From Sphingomonas sp. 28-63-12 (lineage in GTDB: Bacteria; Pseudomonadota; Alphaproteobacteria; Sphingomonadales; Sphingomonadaceae), in contig NCGD01000006.1 of the NCBI GenBank assembly GCA_002281535.1, positions 1-39,541 of the forward strand: a stretch of 39,541 nucleotides of DNA, in the 5' to 3' direction. Position numbers and translations under genes: made by a program. Positions 6,632 through 29,182 of this stretch are shown here, in pieces. The notes below the pieces were generated by a model. The model saw nothing but the letters and a program-made list of their open reading frames with translations. It had not been told where the DNA came from and searched no databases. Within the stretch, counting starts at the first letter, position 1, and every line of letters begins with the position of its first letter.

Positions 6632-6663
6632 CGGCAGCTATCGCCCCAGTTGCGGTCGTTTGG

Positions 6664-6996: not shown

Positions 6997-7024
6997 AGCG
7001 CTGGTATAGCATCGTCCGACATTG

Positions 7025-14164: not shown

Positions 14165-15307
14165 ATGCCGCTTGATTATGAAACGCTGCGGATCATCTGG
14201 TGGGCGCTGATGGGCGTGCTGCTGATCGGCTTTGCCCTCACCGACGGCTTCGATCTCGGTGCCGCCGCGTTGCTGCCCTTTGTCGGGCGCAGCGACGAGG
14301 AGCGGCGGATGGTGATCAACACCATCGGCGCGACCTGGGAGGGCAACCAAGTGTGGTTCATCCTGGGCGGTGGCGCGATCTTCGCGGCCTGGCCACTGGT
14401 CTATGCCATCAGCTTCTCGGGGTTCTACCTCGCCATGTTTCTGGTGCTCGCCGCGCTGATCCTGCGCCCGGTCGGGTTCAAATACCGTTCCAAGCATAAT
14501 GACCCGAAATGGCGCAGCCGCTGGGACTGGGCGCTGTTCGTCGGCGGCTTCGTGCCCGCATTGGTGTTCGGCGTCGCGGTCGGCAATGTGCTGCTCGGTG
14601 CGCCGTTCCGCCTCGATGGCGATCTGCGCTCCTTCTATGACGGCGGCCTGCTCGGCCTGTTCACGCCGTTCAGCCTGCTGACCGGGTTGTTGTCAGTGGC
14701 GATGCTGGTGCTGCATGGCGCCGGCTGGCTGAGCCTCAAGCTCGAAGCCGGGCCGGTGCTCGATCGCGCGCGGACCTATGGGCGGATCGCGGCGCTGCTC
14801 GCGATCATCCTGTTCCTCGCCGGCGGCGCGTTCGTCGCCTGGGGCGGGATGGGCTATCGCCTCGACGGGCTGGTCGATGCCAACGGGCCGTCCAACCCGC
14901 ACCTCGTCTCCGCCGTCGCCGCGCCGGGCGCCTGGCTCGACAATTTTGCAGCCCACCCGTGGATGCTGGCCGCGCCGGCACTTGGCCTAATCGGGCCGGT
15001 ACTGGCGATGCTGGGCATTACCGCCCGACGCGACCTGCTGGTCTTTGCCGGCTCCTCGCTCGCCAATATCGGAATCATCTCGACGGTCGGTCTGTCGATG
15101 TTTCCGTTCATCCTGCCAAGCTCGATGGATCCGGCTTCAAGCCTCACCGCCTGGAACGCCTCGTCGAGCCATCTCACTTTGTTTATCATGCTGATCGTCA
15201 CGGTGATTTTCCTCCCCATGGTGCTTGCCTATACCAGCTGGGCCTATCGGGTGATGTTTGGCCGGGTGACGACCGAGCAGGTCCGCTTCAACCCCGATTA
15301 TTATTGA
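14165..15307 (+). CDS. cydB: Cytochrome bd ubiquinol oxidase subunit II
   Basis: Second membrane subunit of cytochrome bd, 380 residues. The start LRIIWWALMGVLLIGFALTD followed by GFDLG is the family's N-terminal signature, and ATWEGNQVWFILGGGAIFAA is the conserved second-helix region. Further hydrophobic helices continue to the end, where SWAYRVMFGRVT matches the typical CydB C-terminus. A GGAGA site lies just upstream of the ATG. It is the size of the long CydB class and pairs with the long-Q-loop CydA. The small subunit cydX follows 22 bp later. Confidence 0.95.
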   Translation: MPLDYETLRIIWWALMGVLLIGFALTDGFDLGAAALLPFVGRSDEERRMVINTIGATWEGNQVWFILGGGAIFAAWPLVYAISFSGFYLAMFLVLAALILRPVGFKYRSKHNDPKWRSRWDWALFVGGFVPALVFGVAVGNVLLGAPFRLDGDLRSFYDGGLLGLFTPFSLLTGLLSVAMLVLHGAGWLSLKLEAGPVLDRARTYGRIAALLAIILFLAGGAFVAWGGMGYRLDGLVDANGPSNPHLVSAVAAPGAWLDNFAAHPWMLAAPALGLIGPVLAMLGITARRDLLVFAGSSLANIGIISTVGLSMFPFILPSSMDPASSLTAWNASSSHLTLFIMLIVTVIFLPMVLAYTSWAYRVMFGRVTTEQVRFNPDYY

Positions 15308-15329
15308 TCGCCGTGAAAGGATTGATCCG

Positions 15330-15446
15330 ATGTGGTATTTCGCCTGGATATTGGGCCTCGGCCTCGCCGTCAGCGTCGCGGTACTGAACGGCGTCTGGCA
15401 CGAATTCCAGACCGACCCGGCGAGCGACCGCACGATCGCCGATTGA
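15330..15446 (+). CDS. cydX: Cytochrome bd small subunit CydX
   Basis: A 38-residue single-pass membrane peptide that stabilises the heme b595/d site of cytochrome bd in characterised relatives. It starts MWYFAWILGLGLAVSVAVLN, with the conserved MWYF(A/S)W opening and one transmembrane helix, and ends in a short polar tail (HEFQTDPASDRTIAD). GAAAGGATTG lies upstream of the ATG at 15330. Position directly after cydB agrees. It is easily missed because of its length. Confidence 0.93.
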   Translation: MWYFAWILGLGLAVSVAVLNGVWHEFQTDPASDRTIAD

Positions 15447-15505
15447 GCGCGGCGGCGCGGGACGGCCGATTGGACCATGTAGCGGCAATCGCTGAGGCAA
15501 GAAGC

Positions 15506-15550
15506 TGGTGCACCCGACTGGATTCGAACCAGTGGCCTCTGCCTTCGGAG
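15506..15550 (-). other. 3' part of tRNA-Arg(CCG): left attachment site (att) of the mobile element
   Basis: Read on the minus strand, the 45 bases start at the anticodon loop (CTCCGAA, anticodon CCG). They continue through the 3' anticodon stem (GGCAG), variable loop, T-arm (ACTGGTTCGAATCCAGT) and acceptor 3' strand ending CGGGTGCACCA. The 5' half (acceptor 5' strand, D-arm, 5' anticodon stem) is absent: the next bases are AT-rich and unrelated. Tyrosine recombinases commonly cross over in tRNA anticodon loops, and an integrase gene begins 184 bp away. The intact tRNA should be restored at the element's other end, outside this window. As it stands this fragment cannot make a tRNA. Confidence 0.85.
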
Positions 15551-15620
15551 CAAATATCAACGTCCTACGCCAGGGAACGCCACTGTTTGTTTTTCTACGC
15601 TAACCTACTGTTTCGATTAA

Positions 15621-15643
15621 GAAAGGTCGTTGAGTGACCTTTC
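15621..15643. repeat. Perfect 8-bp inverted repeat upstream of the integrase gene
   Basis: Arms GAAAGGTC (15621-15628) and GACCTTTC (15636-15643) with a 7-nt spacer lie between the attachment site and the integrase start. There is no T-run, so it is more likely an arm-type recombinase site or operator than a terminator. The choice between these is inference. Confidence 0.5.
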
Positions 15644-15733
15644 CTATGCTACGCAGCAGTTGCCCTGGTTTGGCTCCCATCTGCTTCCGTGGTGCTTCCG
15701 CGGAAGCAGCGCTGGAATCAGAAAGGACGGCTG

Positions 15734-17092
15734 ATGACCAAGCTCAACAAGCGCGTTGTGGACGCTGCACAGGCGCGCGACAAGGACTACTTCATTTGGG
15801 ACGATGACCTCCCCGGGTTCGGGCTTCGGGTCTTCGTCTCGGGCAAGCGCAGCTACGTGATCCAGTATCGCGCGCAAGGCCGCAGCCGTCGTTATACGAT
15901 CGGCCTGCACGGTGTTTGGACGCCGGAACTCGCGCGGCAGGAGGCAAAGATTCAGCTCGGCCGCGTTGCCAAGGGCGACAACCCGGCTGAGGAGCGCCAG
16001 CTCGATCACCAGGCCATCACCGTCAAGCAGCTGTGCGACCTCTATCTGGCTGACCTCAAGGCCGGGCTTATCCTCGGCAAAGGCAACCGGCCCAAGAAGG
16101 CGACCACCATCGGCACGGATACCGGCCGCATCCAGCGTCACATCATCCCTCTGCTAGGCAGCCGACGCGTGAAAGATCTCTCGAAGGCCGACATCAACAA
16201 GGCCCTCAAGGACATCATGGCGGGCAAGACCGCGGTGAGCGTCAAAACCAAGAAGCTGCGCGGCAAAGCGATCGTGAGCGGCGGCGCGGGTACGGCAACG
16301 CGCACCATCGGCCTTTTCGGGGGCATCCTCACCTATGCGATGGACGCTGGCATCATCACCGCCAATCCCGCGCATGGCATCCGCAAGCCGAAGGACAATG
16401 TGCGCGACCGCCGACTGACCGAGGACGAATACCGCCTGCTCGGGCGCATCCTTCGCGACGCGGTCGACGACGGCCAGTACGCGATGGCGGCCGAGATCAG
16501 CCGGCAGATCGCGCTCACCGGCTGTCGCCGCATGGAGATGATCGGCCTTCAATGGGTTGAGATGGACACCGGCGGTAGCTGCCTTCGCCTCATCGACAGC
16601 AAGGAAGGCAAATCGACCCGCCCGGTCGGCTTGCCCGTCGTGGAGTATATGGAGAACCGCCGTGAAGACGCGGAGGGCACCTATGTCTTCCCGGGTCAGG
16701 GTGACGACAACGCCTTCGGCGCGTTCCCGCGGCACTGGGACAAGATCCTCAAGGGAACCGAGCTCGAGGGCATCACGCCCCATGTGCTGCGGCACAGCTT
16801 CGCCAGCATCGGCAACGATCTCGGCTTCACCGAAGTGACCATCGCAGCCCTCGTCGGCCATTCGAAGGGATCGGTGACCAGCAAGTATATCCACACGCTG
16901 GACACCGCGCTGATCATGGCGGCCGACACGATCGCCGGATACATCGCCGGCCTTCTGGACGGCCGACAGTTCAAGCAAACCGCCTACGCGCTCGATCGCG
17001 ACTCCCGGAAGGCGGCGCTCGCGCGCTTCCTCAGCAAGGCAGCCGGCGAGGTCGTGGGGCATAATGACGAGGAGATTCCCCTTGCCGCATAG
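15734..17092 (+). CDS. Tyrosine-type site-specific integrase (P4-like)
   Basis: Catalyses integration and excision of the element at the adjacent tRNA-Arg site. The 452-residue protein has an N-terminal arm-binding domain of the DUF4102 type (LPGFGLRVFVSGKRSYVIQY), a core-binding segment around 95-215, and a C-terminal catalytic domain. The active-site set is visible as Arg265 (TGCRRMEM), Lys290 (DSKEGKST), His350 and Arg353 (HVLRHSF), His376 (VGHSKGS) and Tyr385 (SKYIHTLD). The ATG at 15734 follows AAAGGA with good spacing. An in-frame ATG at 15689 would add 15 residues without a site. It is oriented away from the attachment site, as is usual for tRNA-borne islands. Confidence 0.95.
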   Translation: MTKLNKRVVDAAQARDKDYFIWDDDLPGFGLRVFVSGKRSYVIQYRAQGRSRRYTIGLHGVWTPELARQEAKIQLGRVAKGDNPAEERQLDHQAITVKQLCDLYLADLKAGLILGKGNRPKKATTIGTDTGRIQRHIIPLLGSRRVKDLSKADINKALKDIMAGKTAVSVKTKKLRGKAIVSGGAGTATRTIGLFGGILTYAMDAGIITANPAHGIRKPKDNVRDRRLTEDEYRLLGRILRDAVDDGQYAMAAEISRQIALTGCRRMEMIGLQWVEMDTGGSCLRLIDSKEGKSTRPVGLPVVEYMENRREDAEGTYVFPGQGDDNAFGAFPRHWDKILKGTELEGITPHVLRHSFASIGNDLGFTEVTIAALVGHSKGSVTSKYIHTLDTALIMAADTIAGYIAGLLDGRQFKQTAYALDRDSRKAALARFLSKAAGEVVGHNDEEIPLAA

Positions 17093-17150
17093 GCCAGCGA
17101 CCGAGCGCTCCAGCCTTGTCTTCGAGGGCCCAAACCCGCATATAGAAGGC

Positions 17151-17333
17151 ATGGCGACGACCGCGAAAAAGAAGACTCGAGCGCGCCGCTCTGCTCCGGC
17201 GGAAAAGGCGTTCGTCTACCGGGGGATCAAGATCCCGCCGGCCACGGGTCGCCGCTCGCCTCTTGCGCAAGCCATCCTCGACGATTTGCGCAAGATGTAC
17301 GAGCAGCCGCATGGCGAACCCAGCCAGGCGTAA
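17151..17333 (+). CDS. Small basic hypothetical protein ahead of the TIR-like/HEPN-like pair
   Basis: A 60-residue protein that I do not recognise. A Lys/Arg-rich start (MATTAKKKTRARRSAPAEKA) is followed by FVYRGIKIPPATGRRSPLAQ and a short helix (AILDDLRKMYEQ). AGAAGG immediately precedes the ATG at 17151. A longer in-frame start at 17064 would overlap the integrase end. Its last 23 bases overlap the start of the TIR-like gene, so it appears to be the first gene of a three-gene unit. A DNA-binding or antitoxin-like role is conceivable but unsupported. Confidence 0.5.
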   Translation: MATTAKKKTRARRSAPAEKAFVYRGIKIPPATGRRSPLAQAILDDLRKMYEQPHGEPSQA

Positions 17334-17955
17334 GCCGCCCGCTTCCAAATCGATCTTCATCAACTGCCCGTTCGATGAGGAGTTCAAGCCGATCCTGCGC
17401 GCGATGGTGTTCGCCATCATCGCGGCGGGCTATCACCCGCGCTGCGCGCTCGACGCCACCGACGGGGCTGAGGTTCGGGTCGGCAAGATTGCTGTGATGA
17501 TCGGCGAATGCGACTGGGGTATCCACGATCTGTCGCGGGTCGAGGTCGGCGCCGGCGGCGTGCCGCGGTTCAACATGCCGATGGAACTGGGGCTTCATCT
17601 TGGCGCCCGCCTTCTCGGCGAAAAGCGCCATCGGCGAAAGCGCGCGCTCATCCTCGACGCCGAGCGGCATCGCTATGACCAGGCCCTGTCCGATATCAGC
17701 GGCCAGGACATCGAATCCCACGGCAACGATCCCGACGAGGCCATCCGCTGCGTCCGCAACTGGCTGTCCGAGCATCGAATGCGAAACGCGGAACCGCTGC
17801 CCGGCGCGGCGGCCCTGCAAGCGGATTACCGTCGCTTCCAGGCGGATATCGGCGCTCTGATGGCGCCGCGCCGGCTTGATCCCGATGACCTGACACATAG
17901 CGACTTTTTGTTCGCCGTGCTTGACTGGCTCAAGGTGACTGGGGCCGCGGCGTGA
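17311..17955 (+). CDS. TIR/deoxyribosyltransferase-like Rossmann-type protein, candidate defence effector
   Basis: A 214-residue soluble protein. The opening strand and loop KSIFINCPFDEEF (13-25), followed by AMVFAIIAAGYHPRCALDAT, then GECDWGIHDLSR and the block FNMPMELGLHLGA with Glu92, form the strand-loop pattern of the TIR/STIR/nucleoside 2-deoxyribosyltransferase-like superfamily. There the Glu before a Leu-Gly is catalytic (NAD+ or nucleoside cleavage) in the enzymes that have it. A second half (LILDAERHRYDQALSDISGQ, then IRCVRNWLSEH) looks like a conserved C-terminal helical part. The start at 17311 lies inside the preceding small gene, and the stop overlaps the next GTG by 4 bp. Assignment to the superfamily rests on motif reading only, and I do not know a characterised close relative. 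Confidence 0.6.
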   Translation: MANPARRKPPASKSIFINCPFDEEFKPILRAMVFAIIAAGYHPRCALDATDGAEVRVGKIAVMIGECDWGIHDLSRVEVGAGGVPRFNMPMELGLHLGARLLGEKRHRRKRALILDAERHRYDQALSDISGQDIESHGNDPDEAIRCVRNWLSEHRMRNAEPLPGAAALQADYRRFQADIGALMAPRRLDPDDLTHSDFLFAVLDWLKVTGAAA

Positions 17956-18914
17956 GCGCGCTGCTCGACAATGCCATCGGCAGCATCCGTGTCGGCGTGC
18001 AGGACTACCGCTCTCCCGACGACCACCGCTATCTCAGCGCGGTTCGCAATTACTACGCCGGCATCCTGCTCCTCGCAAAAGAGGTGCTGGTCCGCCGCTT
18101 CCCGAACGAAGACCCCGACATCCTGATCGCTGCCCAGCTCAAGCCACAGGCCGGGCCCAACGGCACGGTCGAGATCGTGCCTGCCGGCCGTACTACAATC
18201 GACTTCCAGACGATCGGTCGCCGGTTCGACGACCTCGGCATCCCGTTCGACCACAAGCTGCTCAACGAGCTCAACCGCATCCGCAACGACATCGAGCATC
18301 GCTTTTCGCCGCTTGGCCGCACCGCAATCATCGAGGCGATCGCCAAGGGGTTTCCGGCGGCGGGGCAGCTGTTCCGCCTGCTCGGCGAGGATCCCGTCGA
18401 GCTGCTCGGCGACGAATGGGCCGAGATGCTCCAGTCGCAGGCGCTGTTCATCGCCGAGCTGGAGGCGTGCCAGAAGACGCTCGAGGCGATCGACTGGCGC
18501 TCGGGCACGATCGCCGAGGCCAAGCTCGTCTGCACGGAGTGCGAGTCCAACCTCGTCCAGCAAGCCGATCCCGAAAACACCGACCAGGATGACGCCGATC
18601 TGTCCTGTCGCGCCTGCGGCGCCCAGCTCGACGTCGGCGAAGTGATTGAGAAAACCGTCGAGGACGTCCTTGGCGCCGAGGCCTACCTTCGCGCCAAGGA
18701 TGCTGGCGAGGACGGTCCCTATTATGACTGCCCCGAATGCGACAAAGGGACGTTCATTGATTTCGAAGCGGCCTGCGCCAACTGCGGGTTCACCTACACT
18801 TCGGACGGTCGATGCGGCATTTGCCACGCGACGATTCCCGTCGCCGACATCCTGCAGGATCCAGACCGCACTCTATGCTCCTACCATCAGTATCTGATGG
18901 AGAAGGACGACTGA
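17952..18914 (+). CDS. HEPN-like protein with C-terminal zinc ribbons, partner of the TIR-like protein
   Basis: A 320-residue protein beginning with GTG in a GTGA overlap with the TIR-like gene. The N-terminal helical half contains NELNRIRNDIEHRF, where Arg111 and His116 form the R-x4-H motif of HEPN ribonucleases (usually R-x4-6-H). The C-terminal half carries Cys pairs C194/C197 and C219/C222, then C260/C263, C275/C278 and C288/C291, so it probably folds into two or three zinc ribbons for nucleic-acid or protein binding. The family as a whole is not one I recognise. Strict coupling to a TIR-like protein suggests the two act together, either as sensor and effector or as two subunits. An alternative is a DUF4145-like HEPN scaffold without nuclease activity. 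Confidence 0.6.
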   Translation: MSALLDNAIGSIRVGVQDYRSPDDHRYLSAVRNYYAGILLLAKEVLVRRFPNEDPDILIAAQLKPQAGPNGTVEIVPAGRTTIDFQTIGRRFDDLGIPFDHKLLNELNRIRNDIEHRFSPLGRTAIIEAIAKGFPAAGQLFRLLGEDPVELLGDEWAEMLQSQALFIAELEACQKTLEAIDWRSGTIAEAKLVCTECESNLVQQADPENTDQDDADLSCRACGAQLDVGEVIEKTVEDVLGAEAYLRAKDAGEDGPYYDCPECDKGTFIDFEAACANCGFTYTSDGRCGICHATIPVADILQDPDRTLCSYHQYLMEKDD

Positions 18915-18930
18915 CCACCCAGGCTTGCCG

Positions 18931-19455
18931 CTAGCGCCCTTCCGCGTCGACCGAAGGCAGCGCACGGGGGCGCGTGAGCAATCCGATCTCTCGGTTCAAC
19001 CCGCGAACATAGGGCTTGCCCGCCGCCGCGAAGCCGGCCTTGCCGAGCGTCGCGCGCATTCTGGCATTATCGGTTCGGACCGTTGAGAAAATCGCCGCGC
19101 CATCCGTATGAGCAAGCGCCTCTGCGATGAGCCGATGAGACCATCCAACGCCCTGAAGGTCGGACTCGATGAACACATAGCCGAGCTCATACGGCACCTC
19201 CGGTTTTGGAAGCGCAACGCCCGTCCACCCGGCAACCTTCTTGCGGTAGCTGTCCCGCGGTCGCTTCAAGGCGACAACCCCGCGCATGACGCCATCGGCC
19301 CAAAGTGTGACTAGCACTCTGGCGTTGGCGATATTCTCTTCGAGTATCGCTCCCCCGACTTCGCCGCCCATAATCACGAGATCCCGAAATCGGGCTCGAT
19401 CGCTGTCGGAAAACGCGTCAGGCGTCGCTGCTTTGATCTCAATCTTGGAAGCCAT
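18931..19455 (-). CDS. GNAT-family N-acetyltransferase
   Basis: A 174-residue protein with the GNAT core: a strand ending VPYELGYVFIESDLQGVGWS, in which the Q-G-x-G-x-(S/A) acetyl-CoA pyrophosphate loop reads LQGVGWSH. It is followed by ALAHTDGAAIFSTVRTDNARM (the usual conserved strand and Asn) and AGFAAAGKPY. The ATG at 19455 is preferred over 19518, since the longer frame would run through a different remnant reading frame. It converges on the HEPN-like gene with a 16-bp gap and may share a promoter with the fragment upstream. The substrate is not deducible. Confidence 0.75.
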   Translation of the reverse strand: MASKIEIKAATPDAFSDSDRARFRDLVIMGGEVGGAILEENIANARVLVTLWADGVMRGVVALKRPRDSYRKKVAGWTGVALPKPEVPYELGYVFIESDLQGVGWSHRLIAEALAHTDGAAIFSTVRTDNARMRATLGKAGFAAAGKPYVRGLNREIGLLTRPRALPSVDAEGR

Positions 19456-19474
19456 CTTCGCGCCATAGCAGTGC

Positions 19475-19609
19475 TCAGCTGTCACCCCCAAGGGCGTCGA
19501 GGTTCTCCAGATCGCCAAACATCTCGTGGATGTAGCGATTCCGTCGCGGGAACGTGGTCAGCAGCTCGTCTGTAACCAACCTGAAGTTTTGCCGATTGTT
19601 CTTCCCGCT
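19475..19609 (-). pseudogene. Possible C-terminal gene remnant upstream of the acetyltransferase
   Basis: The minus frame reads FRLVTDELLTTFPRRNRYIH and then EMFGDLENLDALGGDS before a TGA. It looks like the end of a real protein but meets a TAG at 19610-19612 and has no good start. Its stop is 19 bp before the acetyltransferase ATG, as in an operon. It may mark the breakpoint where the phosphorothioation locus was inserted. A chance reading frame is the alternative. Confidence 0.3.
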
Positions 19610-19666
19610 CTATAGCTTGCTGCGCGTGGTGATGGTGCGAATCGCGATGAGGGGGCGACGACGGGC

Positions 19667-21325
19667 TTGGTGTTCGATTCACAGCGAGGCTACGCGGGTG
19701 CGTCCCCTGGTCAGAATCTTGGGAGCTTGCTCGATCGCCTAACTGTGCGCGACCTCCAGATGATCGTTGGCCCGCGGGTGCTTCCTCTCCTCCCAGTCGT
19801 TCCGAAAGGAGATCGATCCGCCCTGATTGCGGCGGCAGAACGAGCGTTGCAGGACCGGGCGCAACAAGTCGTCGGGGAGCCGGAGATCAGGAAGACCCTG
19901 CTGCGCAATCTCGATCCGGGCAAACTTGACGAATTGAAAGCTCGATTGACCCAAGGTGGGGTCGATGTCGCTGCGGGTGAACTGGATATACGAGATCTCG
20001 CCGCGCCCCGGCCTTGGGCCATCGCCAGTGGATTTCTCGGTCTACAAGGGGAGGACGCGGCTGCTGGAACGACGGCGCTCCACCGCCAAGAAATCCAGCC
20101 AACCTTCCCCCTCTTCCCGCATCAGCGTTCGGTCGTTCGGCGCGCTTATAAGCGCGTCGGGACTGGATTCGGTCGGACGCTCATTCATATGCCGACCGGC
20201 TCAGGCAAAACCCGAACGGCGATGCATTTGGTATCCCGAGCGCTGAACGAGTTCGAACCAGGCATCGTCGTTTGGCTCGCCACCAGCCGGGAACTGTTGG
20301 AGCAGGCTGCCGAAACATTCGACGCGGCCTGGTCGTCGCTAGGCAATCGCGACCTGGAAGTGCGTCGCTTTTGGGGTGCCCGCACGCCAGCGCCGGACGA
20401 CATGGCCGATGGAATTCTCATAGCCGGGCTTGCAAAACTGCATGCATGGCGCGAGCGAGACGGCTTGGCTTTCCTGAAACTCGCCGCCAAGGTCCGCCTC
20501 GTCATTATGGACGAGGCCCACCAAGCCGTGGCGCCGACCTACCGCGAGGTAATCGAGGGCTTGTGCGGCGCGGGGGGCGAAGGCGCCTTGCTCGGCCTGA
20601 CCGCCACGCCGGGTCGGTCATGGAATGACGTGGGTGCCGACGAAGCGCTTTCCGATTTCTTCGGGGGTTCGAAAGTCGTGCTGGAGATCGGCGACGACCC
20701 CAACCCGGTCAAATATCTGCTCGATAACGGCTATCTGGCGCGACCGGCTTTTCAGCAGATTGAATACGCGCCCGAGATCCGCCCATCGCCTTCCGAGTTG
20801 AGGAAGCTCGCGAAGCTTGATGATTATGCCGACGAGACCCTGGACAAATTGGCCGCCGACACGGCGCGTAACCTCGCGATCTTGGATGCGGCCAAGGGAC
20901 TGATCGCTCGCGGACACACGCGGATCATCTTGTTCGCGGTCAGTGTTGAACATGCTCAGGATATGGCCAGCGGCTTGGCGGCACATGGCATCGCGGCCGC
21001 TGTGGTGTCCGGCGATACCCCTGGCGCCAAGCGCACCTCGATTCTCAAGACCTTCAAGAGCGCGACCTCCCGGCCGCAGGTACTTTGCAATTTCGGCGTT
21101 CTGACTACTGGCTTCGATGCGCCGCGCACGAGCGCCGCCATCATCGCCCGGCCCACCAAATCGCTCGTGCTTTACAGCCAGATGGTTGGTCGGGCCACAC
21201 GCGGGCCGCAGGCCGGCGGCAATGACACCTGCGAAATCCTCACCGTCCACGATCCGGCTTATCCCGGATTTGGAGACATCGCCGAGGCATTCTTTAACTG
21301 GGAGGACGTCTGGCATGGCGACTGA
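19667..21325 (+). CDS. DEAD/DEAH-box (SF2) helicase, candidate SspF-like restriction component
   Basis: A 552-residue ATP-dependent helicase or translocase. An N-terminal domain of about 145 residues without a recognised fold (DRLTVRDLQMIVGPRVLPLL and onward) precedes the motor. Motor motifs are FPHQRSVVRRA (Q-like), Walker A MPTGSGKT (175-182), DEAH (282-285), GLTATPGRSW (motif III), VVSGDTPGAKR, VLTTGFDAPR (V) and QMVGRATRG (VI). The frame begins with TTG at 19667 (or GTG at 19670) behind GAGGGGG. No later start keeps the N-terminal domain. The gene overlaps the GHKL gene by 11 bp. With the GHKL and PLD genes it forms a rightward operon facing sspABCD. By composition it probably corresponds to the SspFGH-type restriction arm, but subunit lettering is inferred. 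Confidence 0.85.
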   Translation: MVFDSQRGYAGASPGQNLGSLLDRLTVRDLQMIVGPRVLPLLPVVPKGDRSALIAAAERALQDRAQQVVGEPEIRKTLLRNLDPGKLDELKARLTQGGVDVAAGELDIRDLAAPRPWAIASGFLGLQGEDAAAGTTALHRQEIQPTFPLFPHQRSVVRRAYKRVGTGFGRTLIHMPTGSGKTRTAMHLVSRALNEFEPGIVVWLATSRELLEQAAETFDAAWSSLGNRDLEVRRFWGARTPAPDDMADGILIAGLAKLHAWRERDGLAFLKLAAKVRLVIMDEAHQAVAPTYREVIEGLCGAGGEGALLGLTATPGRSWNDVGADEALSDFFGGSKVVLEIGDDPNPVKYLLDNGYLARPAFQQIEYAPEIRPSPSELRKLAKLDDYADETLDKLAADTARNLAILDAAKGLIARGHTRIILFAVSVEHAQDMASGLAAHGIAAAVVSGDTPGAKRTSILKTFKSATSRPQVLCNFGVLTTGFDAPRTSAAIIARPTKSLVLYSQMVGRATRGPQAGGNDTCEILTVHDPAYPGFGDIAEAFFNWEDVWHGD

Positions 21326-23138
21326 TGAGACCACGATCGAAGACGCGTCCTTCATTCCCGCCGATCTCGCGATCCAGGCGATGCGCGATAGCGGTTACAA
21401 GAACACCGCCTATGCTCTCGCCGAACTGATCGACAACTCGGTGCAGGCCGAAGCCAAGAGCATCGAAATCATCTGCATCGAAGAGATGGTGCAACTCGCC
21501 GACCGCAAGCGCAAACGCCTAACCAAGATCGCGGTGCTCGACGACGGGCTAGGCATGAACGCATCGGTGCTTCGCAAAGCACTGCAATTCGGCAACGGAA
21601 CCCGCCTAAATGACCGTTCTGGTATCGGGCGCTTCGGCATGGGCCTTCCAAATGCATCCATTTCGCAAGCTGGACGGCTCGACGTGTGGAGCTGGCAAAA
21701 CGGGCCTGACAACGCCCTACACAGCTTCCTGGACGTTCAGGAGATTCGAGATCGGCTGCGCAGAGAGGTGCCGATCCCACAGCCGCTAGCGGTTCCCGCC
21801 GAGTGGCGCGAGCGAGCGCTGAGTGTAGGCCATAGCGGAACCTTGGTCGTCTGGACGAAACTGAGTCCGGATCGGCTCACCTGGAAGGGCGCCAAGGCCA
21901 CGTTGAAAAACACCGGCTGGCTGCTCGGACGCATCCATCGTCGTTTTGTCGGTGACGGAAGTCTCAGCATCCGGCTAGCGGGCGGCGAGGACGGATATCT
22001 GGAATCCGATGCCGTCACGATCAACGACCCAATGTACCTGATCGCGGCGCCGACCATGCCGGCGCCATTCAACAAGGAGCCCATGTTCAAGGACGTTTTC
22101 AGCGTCCCAGTGACGGTGGAGGTCAATGATAAGACTTATCAGGTTCAGACCCGTTACTCCGTGGCCAAGGATATCACGCTCGATCTCGCTGGGACGGTGA
22201 ATCGCGGCGACACCGCTTACGGGAAGGACGCGGCCAACAATATTGGCGTCTCCGTGATGCGGGAAGGCCGGGAGCTGATGCTCGACCGATCCTGGACGAT
22301 TCAATACGACCCGCGTGATCGGTGGTGGGGATGCGAGGTCGAATTTCCCGCAGCGCTCGACGAAATCTTCGGGGTCACCAACAACAAACAGGCTGCCACC
22401 GTCTTCAACGAACTATCCGGCCTGGACTGGAAGGATCTCGCCGATCCCGGCGAAACCATGCCGGAGGTCGTTGCGCGGCTCAAGGATGAAGGCGACCCGA
22501 AGGGGGTGCTCCTCCATCTCAGCGAAACCATCAAGAATAATCTCGCCCAACTCCGAAGCACGATCAAAATCCAGGCCAAGGGCACCCGGAAGGGCGGCAA
22601 ACGACATACCGATGGAGATCCAACCGAAGAGGCCAACAAGCGCTGGAAACAGCGGGACGAGACCAATCCGATCCCTGACGCGGATACTCCACCGTCGACC
22701 GATGATCTGAATGAGCTTTCGGGAGACCTGACCGAGGATGGACGCAATGCCGAAGACACGTCGGAAATCGTCGCCCGGGTCGTATCCGGCGACCTGAAGG
22801 TTGTCTTCATCGACAAGGCCCTTGGGGGTTCGTCCGAACTCTTCACCGTGGTCGCTCGTGGCCCGCTCACCGAGGTGGTCTTCAACCGCCGACATCCGGC
22901 CTTCGATATGATCTTCGACACGGTCTCCGCCGATGATGACCTTGACGCCCTATCGAGCACCGAACTGCAGGATCGCCTGCTGAAGGCCGGCCAGGCCGTC
23001 CAGCTTCTCTTCGCAGCCTGGGCCCGCATGGAGCGCGAGGATCCGCCAAACCAGGCACGCTATGAAAGGGTCCGGGAGAGCTGGGGCAAACTGGCCCGCG
23101 ACTTTCTCGATCCTGTCGATATTTCCGGCCTCGACTGA
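21315..23138 (+). CDS. GHKL (HSP90/MORC-like) ATPase, candidate SspG-like restriction component
   Basis: A 607-residue protein with an N-terminal Bergerat ATP-binding fold: N-box AYALAELIDNSVQA (Glu37, Asn41), G1 box VLDDGLGM (75-81 region) and G2 box GIGRFGMGLPNAS (103-115). The order and spacing fit MutL/HSP90/MORC-type ATPases, which clamp around DNA or partners when ATP binds. A middle domain follows. About residues 400-480 are polar and charged (KGTRKGGKRHTDGDPTEEAN region). The C-terminal 130 residues contain HPAFDMIFDTVSADDDLDAL. GGGAGGAC precedes the ATG, which lies inside the helicase gene, so the two are coupled. The PLD gene starts at the last base of its stop. It may act as a switch for the nuclease, an inference from the context. 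Confidence 0.85.
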   Translation: MATDETTIEDASFIPADLAIQAMRDSGYKNTAYALAELIDNSVQAEAKSIEIICIEEMVQLADRKRKRLTKIAVLDDGLGMNASVLRKALQFGNGTRLNDRSGIGRFGMGLPNASISQAGRLDVWSWQNGPDNALHSFLDVQEIRDRLRREVPIPQPLAVPAEWRERALSVGHSGTLVVWTKLSPDRLTWKGAKATLKNTGWLLGRIHRRFVGDGSLSIRLAGGEDGYLESDAVTINDPMYLIAAPTMPAPFNKEPMFKDVFSVPVTVEVNDKTYQVQTRYSVAKDITLDLAGTVNRGDTAYGKDAANNIGVSVMREGRELMLDRSWTIQYDPRDRWWGCEVEFPAALDEIFGVTNNKQAATVFNELSGLDWKDLADPGETMPEVVARLKDEGDPKGVLLHLSETIKNNLAQLRSTIKIQAKGTRKGGKRHTDGDPTEEANKRWKQRDETNPIPDADTPPSTDDLNELSGDLTEDGRNAEDTSEIVARVVSGDLKVVFIDKALGGSSELFTVVARGPLTEVVFNRRHPAFDMIFDTVSADDDLDALSSTELQDRLLKAGQAVQLLFAAWARMEREDPPNQARYERVRESWGKLARDFLDPVDISGLD

Positions 23139-24049
23139 TGCGTCGAGATGGCGATCTGCTCGTCGCGCATGTGGCGCGAGCAAAAAAGAGCGTCTTGCTC
23201 TGTGCGCCCTTCATCAAGCTGGGTGTAGCCAAGCGCCTACTGAGCGCCATCGATCCTGATGTCCCTATAGACATCGTCACTCGGTGGCATGCTGAGGAGG
23301 TCGCCGCCGGCGTTAGCGACTTGGCCGTGTTCGATCTTGCTGCCAGCCGGTCCAGCGTAACTCTGCGCCTTCTCGATAACCTGCACGCCAAACTCTATGC
23401 CTCCGATGATCTGCTGCTTGCTGGTTCTGCAAATCTCACTGCGACCGCCCTTGGCTGGTGCAGCGACCCCAACCTCGAACTTCTCATGGCAGTGCCATCA
23501 AATGACGAGGCGGTCCTGCGGTGTCGGGCGGGACTATCCGCGGCGCGCTTGGCGACCGCCGAGGAACGCGCGGCCATTCAAGCGGTCGTAGACGAGATGC
23601 AGCGACCGCCTTTGCCCGAGGCGAAGACGGTTGACGACGCGCTGGCCGGACCCTGGCTCCCCAAGCTGGCGGCTCCCGAACGATTGTTCGCCGCCTATGT
23701 CCCCTCGGGGCGAGAGAGGTTGACGACTTCGGCCATCGAAGCCGCTGACCATGACCTTCAAGCGCTGGCCATCGAGCCCAACTTGAACGAACCGACCTTC
23801 CGGACTCAGGTCGCCGAGCGGTTTTCCACCATGCCTGCAGTCAGCGCCATTTTGAGAGCGGCTCAAAGCGACTTGTCGGATGCGGCCGCGGCCGATTTGA
23901 TCCAAACGCTTGTCGGAACGTCCGACATGAGTGCAACCGCGCGTTGGCAGATCGTCCGCGAATGGCTCACATACTTCTTGCGCGACAAATACGAGATCGC
24001 GCCTCAATCTTTCGTCACGCGCCTGCGGCCGGGCGCCGGTCGCGAGTAG
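23138..24049 (+). CDS. Phospholipase D-family (HKD) nuclease, candidate SspH-like restriction component
   Basis: A 303-residue protein with a single HKD motif: LHAKLYASDDLLLAGSANLT gives His83, Lys85, Asp90 and the G-S-x-N continuation (Ser97, Asn99). PLD nucleases with one motif usually dimerise to form the active site. An N-terminal strand SVLLCAPFIKLGVAKRLL is typical of the family's first fold element. The last 150 residues are helical and unassigned. The ATG overlaps the GHKL stop by one base (TGATG), indicating coupled translation at a fixed ratio. As the only obvious nuclease of the operon it is the likely DNA-damaging subunit. Its stop lies 61 bp from the converging sspD stop. Confidence 0.85.
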   Translation: MRRDGDLLVAHVARAKKSVLLCAPFIKLGVAKRLLSAIDPDVPIDIVTRWHAEEVAAGVSDLAVFDLAASRSSVTLRLLDNLHAKLYASDDLLLAGSANLTATALGWCSDPNLELLMAVPSNDEAVLRCRAGLSAARLATAEERAAIQAVVDEMQRPPLPEAKTVDDALAGPWLPKLAAPERLFAAYVPSGRERLTTSAIEAADHDLQALAIEPNLNEPTFRTQVAERFSTMPAVSAILRAAQSDLSDAAAADLIQTLVGTSDMSATARWQIVREWLTYFLRDKYEIAPQSFVTRLRPGAGRE

Positions 24050-24110: not shown

Positions 24111-24953
24111 CTATTTATGACAAATCACGCACCCGCCCGCCGCCTCGTCGATCCCATAGACGTCATCGATGGTATCGGCGGCCGCGTCGGCAAGAGGGTT
24201 GGCTGGCCGGCGTAGCTTGAGCCGCTCCCGTCGGCGTTCATAATCCACTTTGATCTGCTCGGCGCGCGCTGGGCGGATGAGTTCGGGCAAGCTTTCGCCC
24301 TGGCTCCAGGTGAAGGGGGAGCCGTCCCGCAGCGCCGTCTTCTCATAGTCCACGGCTTCGGCAAATCGGTCGGGATGGTGTTCGGCCAATCGTACCCATT
24401 CGATCTTCTGCTGGAAAAAGCAGAAGGTGCAGCCTGAGCGGGAGCGCCAGGAATAGTAGTCCGGCTCGCCAACATCCGCCTGCTGCAGCATCTCGATCAC
24501 CCCAGCGCGATCGATCCCGGCCTCTCGCAATGGCAAGTGGACCTGCATGTTGTCATGCGTTGCCTGATAGCCCTCGCGTGTCGGTTCATCGGCACGGATC
24601 GCCACATAGGAGTGGACTGTGACGCCGGCGTCGAGATCGGCACGCAGCCATTTTTCAAGCGGTCGGAGCTTCAGCTGGCGCGTACACCATCGCGTCCGCG
24701 GGGAGGGAAGAAAGTTGCCATATTCGTCGAGCCAGAAATCGAAGTCGCGATCCGGATTGAGGCGCAGGATCGGCTTTCCCAGGAACCCTTCCAGCCGGTC
24801 GAGGAAGGTATAGACCTCCGGCAGCTCTTTGCCGGTATCGGTGAAAAAATACTCGAGCGGCAGTTCAGGATGGTGCTGCCGCATGTAGACGGCCAGCGCC
24901 GCGCTATCGCGCCCGCCCGAGATGCCAAGAATGTGCCGATCGGGTTGGGTCAC
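24111..24953 (-). CDS. sspD: SspD: PAPS-reductase/ATP-pyrophosphatase family DNA phosphorothioation protein
   Basis: PP-loop enzyme thought to activate the DNA backbone with ATP so that sulfur from SspA can be inserted. The 280 residues carry ISGGRDSAAL (11-20, PP-loop SGGxDS), FFTDTGKELPEVY (36-48, PAPS-reductase type), RWCTRQLKLRPLE with Cys90, and CTFC (175-178). A C-terminal CVIC pair (275-278) could, with the others, hold an Fe-S cluster as in the related DndC. The length fits the compact SspD rather than the longer DndC. It begins with GTG in a GTGA overlap with sspC, the last gene of the sspABCD operon. Confidence 0.87.
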   Translation of the reverse strand: MTQPDRHILGISGGRDSAALAVYMRQHHPELPLEYFFTDTGKELPEVYTFLDRLEGFLGKPILRLNPDRDFDFWLDEYGNFLPSPRTRWCTRQLKLRPLEKWLRADLDAGVTVHSYVAIRADEPTREGYQATHDNMQVHLPLREAGIDRAGVIEMLQQADVGEPDYYSWRSRSGCTFCFFQQKIEWVRLAEHHPDRFAEAVDYEKTALRDGSPFTWSQGESLPELIRPARAEQIKVDYERRRERLKLRRPANPLADAAADTIDDVYGIDEAAGGCVICHK

Positions 24954-27900
24954 GCGATCTCCACCTCGGTATCGGCCGCTAGACTGGCGACAGCGCGCGC
25001 GAGGGCGGCGAACTGGATCCGCCCAAGCGCCTCGTCCTTTCCAAGCGTCTTCAAAAGTCGATCCGCGAGCGCGGTTGCTTGGACCTTCTCTGCCTCGGTG
25101 AGAATGAAGCTGCGAAACAGTGGCGGCGTCTTGGGATCGACGCCGACCACCAAGGCCAACGCTTCCGTACTGGATCGCCGGTCTCGCACGACGGCCAGCG
25201 CTTCAAGTTCCCGGAACTGTCGGCCGAATCTGGCCAACTGGAGCAATGCCTGTTCGCGATCTCGGTCCGACCATTGATGAGCCGGCTTGTGGAGAAGCAG
25301 ACTGGCGACGCCCTCGATATCACCGTCGTCGGACTCGAATGCGGCAGCGCGCATGGCGAAACCCTCGAACGCATAGTCGTTCGTCAGGTTCTTTATCGAA
25401 GCGGCCCGCTCGGACAATCCAGCAAACGTCGATGCATCGACCGCCAGGGATCTGGCGAGCGCACGATGCAGATGATCGAGGAGTCGCTGATATGCGGCTT
25501 CGGCTTCAAGCAGGGCGTCGTGCACCGTTCCGGCGGACGGAGTGTCGCCCATGACCTTCGGCAAATCCTCGAAGAGCAGGGCTTCCGGGTCGCGCGATTT
25601 CAACACGACGCCGCGCACCTTTTGCGCCACGTCACTCAATGTCTCGGTGCGCTTGGCATAGGTCGTCAGCTTCGCGTAGCGCCGGAAGAGGGCCTGGGCC
25701 ACGGGCAGGGACGCGGTGCCATCGCCGATGTCGAATTTCTGCGCCAAGCCACTCAGGAACGCTGCTTGGAGCACAGAGCGATCCACACGCCGCAGACGGA
25801 CCTCGTTCGGCTTCTGCAGGAGCTTATCGACGACGACGTCGTCGAGCCCAGTCTGGAATACGCCGTCGATATAGACGGCCAGCCGGTCACGGTTGGCAAT
25901 CAGGCTGGCCAGCGCCAGCACCGGCATCACACCCGCCTTCAGACCGAAGGGAGGAGCGGCCCAAATTCGATAAATCTCATCAAGCGTGATGTCCCCCGCC
26001 GCTTCAACGACATCCCAGGCCGGACGAAGGCTGGCCCCATCGCCCTCGGCCGTCGGCGCCTGAAAACCATAGACGCCGGGTTCAATCTCGCTGTGTACCC
26101 CAAACGGTTTGAGCGTCGTCAGATAGAGCCCCATTTCGGCGGGGAAACCTTCGAACCCGAGGTCGGGCTGATCCGCTCGTGCAACCATCGCGTGGCAAAG
26201 CTCGCGGAGCGCCGCCATTGCGTTGGACGATGGTCGATCGCGCTGCAGCAACTCGCTCTTGAGAATGGGCGTATGGAAATACGCTTCATCGGCAAGCGCC
26301 GTCGCCACGATCGCCAGCGGTTCACGTAAAACTGTCGCCGGATCAGGCGCGAGCCACCAGCGCGCATGGCTCAGCGCCGCTTCCAGGTCACGATGGACGA
26401 GATCGACTCCGGCCGACCGGCGAGCGGCGATCTCGCGACGGGCGATCCGATCACCTTCGAGCTGCGGATGTTCGCGAAACACCCGCTCGATGGCAAAAAG
26501 TTCCGCCGCGCTCGATCGCAGAGCATAGGCGTCGGTGGCGCCGCCCACCGCCGCGACAATCTTGGCCTTGCCAAGCGCCTTGGCGACGGCTTTGCATCGG
26601 CGTTCAACCTCGCCACCGTCGATTGTTCCGTCGCCAAGCAGCAGGATAAGAGATCCGCTCCCCTTGGGGCGGCGGGCTGCGATCACCTCGGCGATGGCGG
26701 ACGGAATGTCCGCCTCTCCGGTGAGATGAACTACGACCTCGAATGTTCTGAGTGCGCCGGTACGGAAATAGTGACGCTTCGCCGGGGCAAATCCCAAACC
26801 GACCCGTTGGGGCAGAACTGACAATTGTCCGTCGCTGAGTGGCGCCGTCGCCTTGTTGATCGCATCTTCAAGATCAAAGTCACTGCCAGCGAACAGGGCG
26901 TAGCCCTTGAGCCGGGGTTGCCGGATCAGCACCGCCCAATCCACGAGATCCGCGATCGCCGCTTGGCGCTCCTTTTCGGACACGTTTGGCGTCGCGGCGG
27001 CCAGAATATCATCGGCTAGCGCGAGACCCGATCCATTGCGAAAGAACTCGATCGCGGCGGCGCTTTTGGTCAGACAAACGTGGAGCGGCCCACCCTTTGC
27101 ACCGGCCCGCTCAATCGCTTCGAAAGCCAAACTGAACCGCGATCCATCAGCGCCGCTGGCGAGCGCCATGCCGAAGTTCGACGCCAAATAATCCCAGAGG
27201 CGATCGGGCCCGTAGGTCGCGCCGTCTTTGGTCGTATTTAGGTGCTCCTGAAATCCAGACGGCTCGGAGGAGCTAAGAAAGCCAAACACACTTCGCTCAT
27301 TCTGGGCGAAGCGCTGCCGGGATACAGGACCGAGCAAAAGGGCGGTCACCGGATTCAACGGCCAGGTGGCGGTCAAGGCATCGGCGAGAACTTGCTCGTC
27401 GGTTGGCCGCCGCAGGCCAACGGCACCCGCAACGGCCGCGGCAGCCGCTGACGCGGAGGCTGGCCGTTCGGCGCAGCTGATCGCCCGACCTAGCAGGGCG
27501 ACGGTTTCGTCCGCACCAGCGAGGAACGGAATGTCCTGATAGCGGCCCTGGACTTTCACCCATTCTTGGCGGGCGTCGCGCGAAGCGCGGGCCGCGTACT
27601 GATCGAAAGCTTGATGCAAGATGCCAATCACAACCAGCCGGCCGTCGCTTCGCGCAGCGCGCTCGGCGATGTCCTGCAGCAAATGGATGTCGCCACCTTC
27701 CAGCGCTTCGTGCTCAAGAAGCTTCCCAAGTTCGTCTAGAACAATGAGCGCGCCGCTGTGACCTGTGACTGCGGAAGTCAGAAGGGCGTCGATAAGTGCA
27801 TCATCGCTAGCGTTGGCGCGGGCATGCGTCGTCTTCGACCAACCGAACGTCACGGCAGAAGCGTCAGCGATGGCTTGGCGCAGCCCCATTCGGCTGCCCG

Positions 27901-28252
27901 TGATAGCGACGACAGCCCAGGGCCCCGACTTCTCTGGAAACGCCTTTTGGTAGGTGCCTGCCAAAGAGGGGCCGGCGATCTTTCGCGCGATCGATCGGTT
28001 TTTCGATGTGCCGGCGACCAGGTTGGCGACGAGTAGCGCGGCGCTAGACTTGCCGCCACCATATGGGCCGGTCCATGTGAAGGCGCCTTGCTTGCTGTCG
28101 ATCTGGCTGGAGGCGAGGGTTACTAGCGACTTCTCGACACTCGCTTGCAGCACATAGCCGACCAAGGGAGGCGTGCCGTTTAGGTCGGCATCGAGGCGCG
28201 CGGAGCGCGCGAACCGCCGGTTGATTTCTACAATGGACGCCAGCGTGCTCAT
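24950..28252 (-). CDS. sspC: SspC: large ATPase of the phosphorothioation complex
   Basis: An 1100-residue P-loop ATPase. Walker A is GPYGGGKSS (62-70), preceded by a fixed FTWTG strand. Walker B is ALIVLDELGKLLEHE (168-182). The rest is long, mostly helical and without further motifs that I recognise. The ATG at 28252 overlaps the sspB stop by 4 bp (ATGA), which is why it is preferred over an in-frame start at 28360 inside sspB. In SspABCD systems the large ATPase works with the nickase SspB and with SspD in one modification complex. Assignment rests on the DUF4007 gene before it and the PP-loop gene after it as much as on the sequence. It is the longest gene of the cargo. Confidence 0.8.
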   Translation of the reverse strand: MSTLASIVEINRRFARSARLDADLNGTPPLVGYVLQASVEKSLVTLASSQIDSKQGAFTWTGPYGGGKSSAALLVANLVAGTSKNRSIARKIAGPSLAGTYQKAFPEKSGPWAVVAITGSRMGLRQAIADASAVTFGWSKTTHARANASDDALIDALLTSAVTGHSGALIVLDELGKLLEHEALEGGDIHLLQDIAERAARSDGRLVVIGILHQAFDQYAARASRDARQEWVKVQGRYQDIPFLAGADETVALLGRAISCAERPASASAAAAAVAGAVGLRRPTDEQVLADALTATWPLNPVTALLLGPVSRQRFAQNERSVFGFLSSSEPSGFQEHLNTTKDGATYGPDRLWDYLASNFGMALASGADGSRFSLAFEAIERAGAKGGPLHVCLTKSAAAIEFFRNGSGLALADDILAAATPNVSEKERQAAIADLVDWAVLIRQPRLKGYALFAGSDFDLEDAINKATAPLSDGQLSVLPQRVGLGFAPAKRHYFRTGALRTFEVVVHLTGEADIPSAIAEVIAARRPKGSGSLILLLGDGTIDGGEVERRCKAVAKALGKAKIVAAVGGATDAYALRSSAAELFAIERVFREHPQLEGDRIARREIAARRSAGVDLVHRDLEAALSHARWWLAPDPATVLREPLAIVATALADEAYFHTPILKSELLQRDRPSSNAMAALRELCHAMVARADQPDLGFEGFPAEMGLYLTTLKPFGVHSEIEPGVYGFQAPTAEGDGASLRPAWDVVEAAGDITLDEIYRIWAAPPFGLKAGVMPVLALASLIANRDRLAVYIDGVFQTGLDDVVVDKLLQKPNEVRLRRVDRSVLQAAFLSGLAQKFDIGDGTASLPVAQALFRRYAKLTTYAKRTETLSDVAQKVRGVVLKSRDPEALLFEDLPKVMGDTPSAGTVHDALLEAEAAYQRLLDHLHRALARSLAVDASTFAGLSERAASIKNLTNDYAFEGFAMRAAAFESDDGDIEGVASLLLHKPAHQWSDRDREQALLQLARFGRQFRELEALAVVRDRRSSTEALALVVGVDPKTPPLFRSFILTEAEKVQATALADRLLKTLGKDEALGRIQFAALARAVASLAADTEVEIA

Positions 28253-29166
28253 GCCGCGGCCGCCAGCGGCCTGGGATAAGCGCTGCTCACCAGCTTGAGC
28301 GCATCGACCTCGCCGACTTTTTGGATTTGCCGCAAACCAGCGGTGTCGGTCCAGAGCCATGCTCCGTGCGTCAACGCCTCCAACCCCATGAGACGAGTGA
28401 TGACGCTGTCTTCATCGAGTTTGAACACACGGCCCGGCGAGCCGGCGGCATAACAGATTTGCTCGGCCGTCAGCGCGGTCGATCCGCCCTGTCGCTGCCA
28501 GAATTCATTCAGGGCGTAGGCAAATACTCCATCGGGCAGGGTCGGCTTCGGCCCGCGCACAAATTCGTGCCAACCGCCAAATCGCGCCTCACGGATGAGG
28601 CCAAGCTCGGCCAGGAGCGGCTCTGCCGCATCCTCACCCTGCGCATCTTCCCGTCGCGTATAGCCGCGGAGGAAGACTTCAACGTCGCGCTTCAGTGTAC
28701 CTCGAGTAGCCCGCCACCCTCTCGCTGCGACCAAGTCGAGCAGCTCTTCCACAAGCATGGCGGGATCGAACTCGATCGCGGCGAGGCCATTGAACGCATA
28801 GTAGGCAGTGGTCGTGAATTGAGCACTGCTGGCGATCGCCCAATGCACGAGCCAAACAGTGGCGGGCCGCTCGATATATGGGTCGAGGCCATCGTCGCGG
28901 AGGATTACGGCGCCTAGCGAGGTCGGCCTCAAGACGCGATCGACCTCTTCAACGAAGCCAGAAGCGAGCGCCCAATAGCGCATCGAAACGGCCATGTTGC
29001 GTCCGACACCAAAACGTGCGATCGCTGATTGTTCCTGGAATGTTCCGGCCGGCGCACCGTTTTCCACCGCGTCAAACGCCTTCTTCAGCCAAAGAAGGCG
29101 CAGCGGGAATGTCTCATGGCCTGCGAACTGCCCGCGAGAGTCGGAATCGAGGAGGCCGTGCTTCAT
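28249..29166 (-). CDS. sspB: SspB: DUF4007 family DNA nickase of the phosphorothioation system
   Basis: A 305-residue protein of the DUF4007 family, the diagnostic member of SspABCD loci. SspB nicks one strand and recruits the modification machinery. The family opening FAGHETFPLRLLWLKKAFD (14-32) is followed by ARFGVGRNMAVSMRYWALAS (50-69), both hallmark blocks. The middle contains TVWLVHWAIASSAQFTTTAYY. The C-terminal half has GWHEFVRGPKPTLPDGVFAY and a helical end. The ATG at 29166 is chosen because AAGG lies 5 nt upstream and it leaves a 16-bp gap after sspA. A start at 29229 would overlap sspA by 47 bp. Translation couples into sspC through ATGA. Confidence 0.87.
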   Translation of the reverse strand: MKHGLLDSDSRGQFAGHETFPLRLLWLKKAFDAVENGAPAGTFQEQSAIARFGVGRNMAVSMRYWALASGFVEEVDRVLRPTSLGAVILRDDGLDPYIERPATVWLVHWAIASSAQFTTTAYYAFNGLAAIEFDPAMLVEELLDLVAARGWRATRGTLKRDVEVFLRGYTRREDAQGEDAAEPLLAELGLIREARFGGWHEFVRGPKPTLPDGVFAYALNEFWQRQGGSTALTAEQICYAAGSPGRVFKLDEDSVITRLMGLEALTHGAWLWTDTAGLRQIQKVGEVDALKLVSSAYPRPLAAAA

Positions 29167-29182
29167 GACGGCCTTGTAGCGG

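Follow-up and report, generated by a model that had tools for sequence, protein, structure and literature searches.

Do three overlapping genes that lie directly behind an integrase gene encode one defense system, or were separate modules brought together? The question is raised by a contig of Sphingomonas sp. 28-63-12 (the window, 39,541 nucleotides in its whole length). Its first-pass annotation proposed that a TIR-like protein and a HEPN protein, the products of the second and third genes (B and C), belong to a single coupled system of two enzymes, and treated the small protein encoded by the first gene (A) as an extra. Reading of the ORFs bore out the annotated layout exactly: three same-strand genes at 17151..18914, with frames that overlap by 23 and 4 nt. 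The features of the locus are listed below.

15506-15550, minus strand: tRNA-like 3' half and probable attachment site, with an 89% repeat in the tRNA-Arg(CCG) gene further along the contig (C49:81976-82052)
15689-17092, plus strand: tyrosine recombinase of the probable carrying element (Arm-DNA-bind_3; Pfam Phage_integrase, 4.7e-16)
17151-17333, plus strand: gene A, ATG start, 60 aa, basic, net charge +8; partner of B
17311-17333, plus strand: overlap of the A and B frames, 23 nt
17311-17955, plus strand: gene B, ATG start, 214 aa, predicted TIR/NDT-like (N-glycosidase-type) fold
17952-17955, plus strand: overlap of the B stop and the C start, GTGA, 4 nt; possible translational coupling, this locus only
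17952-18914, plus strand: gene C, GTG start, 320 aa, HEPN motif and three zinc ribbons; PADLOC PDC-S64
18931-19518, opposite strand: acetyltransferase-like ORF (by eye), downstream of C
19667-24049: trio of ResIII/DEAD helicase, GHKL ATPase, and PLD-like protein, downstream of C
24111-24953: SspD, strong PADLOC match
24950-28360: SspC, strong PADLOC match

An alternative in-frame ATG at 17064 would extend gene A to 89 aa. Both annotated flanks were recovered: the integrase is the tyrosine recombinase, and the downstream defense locus consists of the helicase/GHKL ATPase/PLD trio followed by SspD and SspC. Since the segment at 15506-15550, the 3' half of a tRNA-like sequence, matches the tRNA-Arg(CCG) gene, it is probably an att remnant. 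An ARAGORN call of tRNA-Ser(cga) at 15506-15580 was rejected, as no Rfam tRNA reached the gathering threshold and only the 3' half matches tRNA-Arg(CCG). The repeat suggests, tentatively, an integrated element of approximately 66 kb, whose cargo would include A-B and C as well as the trio and the Ssp genes.

The N terminus of the GHKL ATPase resembles MzaB, and the trio is MZA- or DISARM-like; its matches did not add up to a complete named system. Behind SspC lie two further genes, one of 326 aa (28249-29229) and one that is cysteine-desulfurase-like (29183-30361); their order is presumably that of sspB and sspA. A promoter scan of the locus found none, and Rfam, repeat, and composition scans of the window were without result.

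Gene C and its relation to gene B

Gene C matched the PADLOC profile PDC-S64 over its full length (E of 4.6e-37; protein positions 3-320, profile positions 9-305 of 305). PDC stands for phage defense candidate in the excerpted text of PMC11514479; a literature search for PDC-S64 returned no paper. Further C loci were collected from a pattern-based scan of genome contigs (46 loci), an alignment-based scan of viral contigs (2 loci), and 12 plasmid records, 4 of which were taken into the set. From the resulting 53 loci, window included, an alignment of 36 rows was built, with the four plasmid copies, copies that are broken, and part of the near-duplicates set aside. All 36 rows keep R, E, and H of the motif R111-N-x2-E115-H116, and 35 of them keep N112, the polar residue after R. 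Likewise, 11 cysteines were present in 36/36 rows, with either C or H at position 312. They are arranged as 194/197/219/222, 260/263/275/278, and 288/291/309/312. The four plasmid copies also retain R and H, as seen in a separate 8-row alignment. The conservation of R111, E115, H116, and the cysteines argues for the Rx4H HEPN motif and for three zinc ribbons, the upper end of what had been annotated. C thus carries both parts of the hallmark of active-RNase-type HEPN proteins, an Rx4-6H motif with a polar residue after R, as it is given in the consulted part of PMC3710099. C proteins mostly end in KDD, or in variants of the RED/RE type, right at the C terminus of the 36-row alignment.

The AlphaFold model of C reached a mean pLDDT of 91.6. 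HEPN toxin chains 8xeh and 8xdj ranked first and second in its Foldseek search (TM of 0.59 and 0.56 by target), although these best matches were weak, with E of 0.49 or worse. Two further chains of this fold test, 1wty and 1jog, are titled nucleotidyltransferase proteins and are, we assume, HEPN relatives. No Pfam HEPN family matched C. To describe the surroundings, 98 of 149 listed neighboring proteins were scanned, which gave 483 matched PADLOC models at 1e-5; many of these models overlap on one protein and so raise the total. Type I R-M, Shedu, Lamassu, AriA, and AbiLi were among the 25 models listed. Given its PDC-S64 match, its motifs, and its defense-type neighbors, C appears to be an ordinary representative of a candidate family that resides in defense islands.

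In a single coupled system, A would sense or regulate, B would make or destroy a nucleotide signal, and C would be a HEPN RNase activated by that signal or by its loss. The overlapping frames and the 4-nt GTGA junction are in keeping with this arrangement, as is the fact that TIR/NDT-like and HEPN folds both serve as effectors in known nucleotide-signaling defenses. None of the sets searched contained a second B-C pair. At the level of the order, a survey of 296 genomes at E up to 1e-6 found C in 4 and B in 13, and both only in the genome of the window itself. The B profile matched at 0/52 other C loci, where the C profile, used as the positive control, matched at 52/52. Conversely, the C profile matched at 0/34 B loci, and the corresponding control with the B profile at 34/34. 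The flanks covered by this cross-search ranged from 1.5 to 7 kb, several of them being cut by contig ends. The genome of the window harbors a second A-B pair that has no C (locus L002, 1283-2094; its B lies on another contig, at C6:25663-26280), and C had one match in this genome. In the sets searched, B is not associated with C.

The borders of C tell the same. Its nearest relative, at locus L042 of Sphingomonas baiyangensis, shares 82% protein identity, and blastn gave 78.5% DNA identity that was limited to 17953-18914; nothing else in the stretch from 15001 to 21000 of the window matched that locus. A different gene of 272 aa (6179-6997) ends 3 bp before C there. At a second locus, L044, which likewise holds a close relative of C, a 415-aa gene (5757-7004) overlaps C by 4 at its 5' side, and at a third, L075, the upstream gene is tightly joined to C with a gap of 3. 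The 272-aa and 415-aa genes are unrelated to each other, and neither matched Pfam at 0.01. The three tightly joined genes might be read as exchanged upstream partners of a constant component C, a reading that we considered and did not adopt. A same-strand ORF of at least 40 aa was called within 120 nt upstream of C at 29/53 loci, and one of at least 90 aa at 18/53 (window included), by a simple gene caller that missed C itself at 5 loci; many short ORFs among these are probably spurious. Apart from near-duplicate loci and two close pairs, no recurrent upstream partner was seen at the C loci, though C may have real partners in some lineages.

Because no B-C pair was found elsewhere and the identity to the nearest C ends at the gene borders, the GTGA junction is a feature of one locus. 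There it may well couple the translation of B and C, and, since such an overlap is what real coupling looks like, C may recently have been recruited into function behind B; as evidence for an evolved two-enzyme system the junction does not serve. B-C as one system was therefore rejected: the annotated pairing was seen nowhere else that was searched, C already stands as a PADLOC family by itself, and DNA identity stops at its gene borders. With C also lacking a common partner at other loci, we regard a coupled three-gene system as very improbable.

Conservation and predicted fold of protein B

For the analysis of B, 37 distinct genes were assembled, to which the genome of the window contributed 2, plasmids 5, viral contigs 8, and other genomes 22. 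Genes of this type are scattered. With the genome of the window included each time, they were found in 13/296 genomes of the order, 5/289 of the class, and 6/299 of the phylum (the last with a clade-II query), as well as on 17 plasmid records, from which the 5 in the set were taken, and on viral contigs. A search of a phage collection gave no match, and single-sequence viral scans were without result.

The B proteins share a signature composed of a near-invariant F16xN18C19P20F21D22 and the invariant elements H72D73 and R86xN88M89P90xE92L93G94. Among 22 columns counted in the 37 proteins, F16, N18, C19, R56, H72, D73, R86, N88, M89, P90, E92, L93, G94, S127, D128, and D133 never vary, so that the annotated Glu before Leu-Gly (Glu92) was present in 37/37. 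Representatives were compared with Pfam (3 proteins; E up to 1 for B of the window), PHROGs (3), NCBIfam (1), and PADLOC (10), and none of these libraries yielded a family. A profile search of PDB sequences gave no match, the best E being 0.56. Specifically, B of the window did not match PF05014, PF01582, or PF13676 in Pfam, and its genome as a whole contained no match to PF05014 and none to PF13676. DUF4406 was found in one of 80 genomes.

The structure model of B (pLDDT of 82.8) placed E92 within the helix at 90-102. The best Foldseek matches of this model were the SPARTA TIR chains 8oz6 (E of 1.2e-3) and 8i88, with 7uxr ranking lower. Chains 2a0k, 6qai, 8rh3, and 4jen, which are of the NDT/TIR type, were matched with a probability of 1.00 and E from 6.6e-3, for the trypanosomatid NDT 2a0k, to 4.9e-2, for the CMP N-glycosidase BcmB (4jen). 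EF-Tu, PurE, and other Rossmann-like chains, with lower probability, lay between the TIR and NDT matches. Against BFVD, TIR and NDT proteins led as well, and phage NDT and CMP-hydrolase-like proteins were among the matches. In the model, the predicted fold is thus of the NDT/TIR type, and a Glu followed by x-Gly stands where a helix begins.

Comparison of alignments by hhalign did not reach significance for NDT (E of 0.09) or TIR (E of 0.17, with two of the 20 TIR rows, L152 and L155, dropped for stop codons), at a probability of <1%. The comparison of NDT with TIR itself, at an E of 0.07, was not better. In this nonsignificant alignment, Glu92-Leu-Gly falls on the FELG motif of NDTs, the Glu of which is catalytic in those enzymes. 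Owing to the combination of a fold match with nonsignificant profile comparisons, B is called NDT/TIR-like in its working rather than a member of a family, and membership of PF05014 or PF13676 is not claimed. Judged by the model, B probably works like an NDT/TIR N-glycosidase. The TIR/NDT-like predicted fold proposed for B at first pass was accordingly supported, and so was the composition of C from a HEPN motif and zinc ribbons; Pfam searches returned no TIR, NDT, or HEPN family for B or C.

Gene A and its pairing with gene B

Far from being an extra, the small protein proved to be the conserved partner of B. At 37/37 B loci, a small ORF (40 to 130 aa, net positive) ends between -27 and +23 nt of the B start, under limits for offset, charge, and length (with ATG, GTG, or TTG as start) that were set after the B loci had been seen. 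The same test was passed at 12/52 C loci, where the start of the match, sometimes without a start codon, was used as the gene start, and at 308/1850 (17%) random ATGs of the same loci. It counts any passing ORF, and at a few loci (e.g., L027, L094, and L109) a second overlapping frame also passes. All A candidates are net positive, mostly from +6 to +18. A is associated with B across loci.

The partners are of several kinds. Pfam confirmed DUF2188 at ten B loci (L040, L041, L090, L093, L095, L102, L105, L108, L109, and L120), the partner at L018 carries DUF3606, and that at L039 has a DUF2188-like stretch below the cutoff. The C-terminal pattern (L/V/F)(S/T)xxxIxxAVxxV, a putative helix, was found in 16/27 partners without DUF2188, compared with 3% of shuffled tails; this expression, too, was defined after the B loci had been seen. 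Both kinds are linked by the partner at L090 (3465-3977), in which a DUF2188 domain occurs together with the C-terminal tail. Gene A of the window matched no Pfam family, DUF2188 (PF09954) included, nor the tail expression. It carries the motif FVYRG(I/L)KI, which among the 37 B loci is common only to the partners in the window and at L088. Searches of the literature on DUF2188 returned no title on this subject, and no publication was found that joins two of the subjects DUF2188, DUF3606, and toxin-antitoxin systems.

In a maximum-likelihood tree of the 37 B proteins, the bootstrap of which had not settled, one central branch was supported (100/99) and separated 14 rows from 23. On the 14-row side, 13 rows were labeled DUF2188, and the fourteenth, L028, labeled other, has an upstream frame that is DUF2188-like on inspection. 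On the 23-row side, 18 rows were labeled tail and 5 other. With these three labels, the tree required 4 changes of partner compared with a shuffled mean of 15.8, and 0/200 shuffles gave a number as low; the DUF2188 labels of L093, L109, and L120 and the tail labels of L099 and L101 had been set by eye, the first three then being confirmed by Pfam, and L090 was counted as tail despite its DUF2188. Since the L090 partner combines DUF2188 with the tail while its B lies on the tail side, the split of the tree by partner is not clean. B of the window groups with B of L088 (99/98). The inheritance of A types together with B clades suggests that A and B are partners in function.

The settings of the B loci point in more than one direction. 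The closest relative of the window pair, at L088, is an opposite-strand cassette among genes that by eye are phage baseplate/tail-like, and a Pfam tally of 93 B neighbors, not made locus by locus, included gp25, tail tube, and capsid families. Metabolic genes were also among the neighbors. When ten selected neighbors were scanned singly, mad3 was matched at L034, mad2 at L092, LmuB at L041, a type II methyltransferase at L040, and a subtilase model at L039; five had no match. Because metabolic genes occur beside B as well, its association with defense is moderate as read from these neighborhoods. The mobile and defense setting given at first pass was supported.

A conserved small gene that overlaps or adjoins a larger partner is a characteristic of type II toxin-antitoxin systems, and under the post hoc limits given above it was present at all B loci, some of them on plasmids and viral contigs. 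A-B might accordingly be a plain type II toxin-antitoxin pair that maintains its element without a phage trigger, with C as an unrelated defense gene. However, the N termini of the partners differ (DUF2188, DUF3606, and others), which fits sensing as well as repression, and B stands beside LmuB, mad2/mad3-like, or methyltransferase genes at 4/10 of the loci looked at singly. We hold this explanation to be unlikely. Another possibility is that A activates B as an adaptor for targeting or for nucleic-acid binding, and that the substrates of B are modified or phage nucleotides delivered by A. The positive charge of the A candidates, the phage NDT and CMP-hydrolase-like proteins matched in BFVD, and the joint occurrence of A type and B clade would agree with such a role; the fact that A is small, with 60 aa in the window, speaks against it, and we rate the adaptor as quite improbable.

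Proposed mechanism and comparison with known systems

We think it reasonably probable that the locus consists of two independent modules placed end to end, an A-B effector-regulator pair and a HEPN gene, C, within the cargo that a probable mobile element carries near its integrase. What the first-pass annotation had observed was right and its fold assignments were reasonable, but a single TIR-HEPN module is not supported, and the overlooked A-B pair makes the better story.

In the first module, the TIR/NDT-like fold and the invariant Glu lead us to infer that B most likely breaks an N-glycosidic bond, the substrate being NAD+ or some other nucleotide or nucleoside and the catalytic residue Glu92. 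The C-terminal part of A would most likely hold B inactive, and its variable N-terminal part would most likely meet the trigger, upon which B would be released and cause arrest or death. A and B would then be a toxin-antitoxin-like pair that serves abortive infection or addiction to the element, for which the NDT-like accessory proteins of retrons would be a precedent. C would most likely be a metal-independent RNase that acts through R111 and H116, an argument by class that draws on the portion of PMC3710099 consulted. Its zinc ribbons may bind nucleic acid or a phage protein and so control the RNase, in a manner comparable to Tha. C would have come to lie behind B by recombination at gene borders.

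As a more tentative generalization, which we regard as possible rather than likely, A-B pairs could represent an undescribed, scattered class of immune or addiction modules. Each would combine an N-glycosidase-fold effector with a small partner whose N-terminal sensor (DUF2188, DUF3606, or others) is exchanged and which, in one clade, docks through a common C-terminal helix. At this locus, the recruitment of a HEPN gene would have produced a suicide operon of two layers, nucleotide and RNA. The analysis corrects the tempting reading of a TIR-HEPN system, which the evidence does not bear, and it brings to light a conserved pair of which the larger member had no match in four profile libraries or among PDB sequences. 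Should B prove toxic and under the control of A, a role would follow for DUF2188, a family without an assigned function, and the exchangeable partners would form a natural repertoire of sensors serving a single effector.

Among known systems, C is closest to the single-gene PDC-S64 of PADLOC; it matches the whole profile, and no difference was found except its place directly behind A-B. With the HEPN toxins, HepT of HEPN/MNT and Tha of Staphylococcus aureus prophages, it shares the Rx4H motif with a polar residue after R, and its model matched HEPN chains weakly. It differs from HepT in having no MNT partner and in its three C-terminal zinc ribbons. In Tha, the HEPN domain is C-terminal, where C has the zinc ribbons instead; according to the available part of PMC11087260, Tha has the motif RNSIMH and is an RNase that tail proteins activate.

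For A, the comparison is with the small DUF2188 (PF09954) proteins, which hold its position at ten B loci, whereas A of the window is not DUF2188. B resembles the TIR effectors, SPARTA TIR-APAZ and BtTir, in that their chains (8oz6 and 8i88, with 7uxr lower) were its best Foldseek matches, but it has no TIR match in Pfam, and no Argonaute-type partner lies beside it in the window. To NDTs and the NDT-like effectors of retrons it is linked by its predicted fold and by a Glu-Leu-Gly at the place of the NDT FELG in the nonsignificant hhalign alignment. As a class, the NDT-like accessory proteins of retrons Eco1, Eco9, and Sen2 are reported, in the text seen of PMC8989520, to be toxins neutralized by RT and RT-DNA. 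B has no RT gene beside it in the window and no PF05014 match, and it is set apart from them by a signature of its own, by a helical region at the C terminus, and by the small partner encoded upstream.
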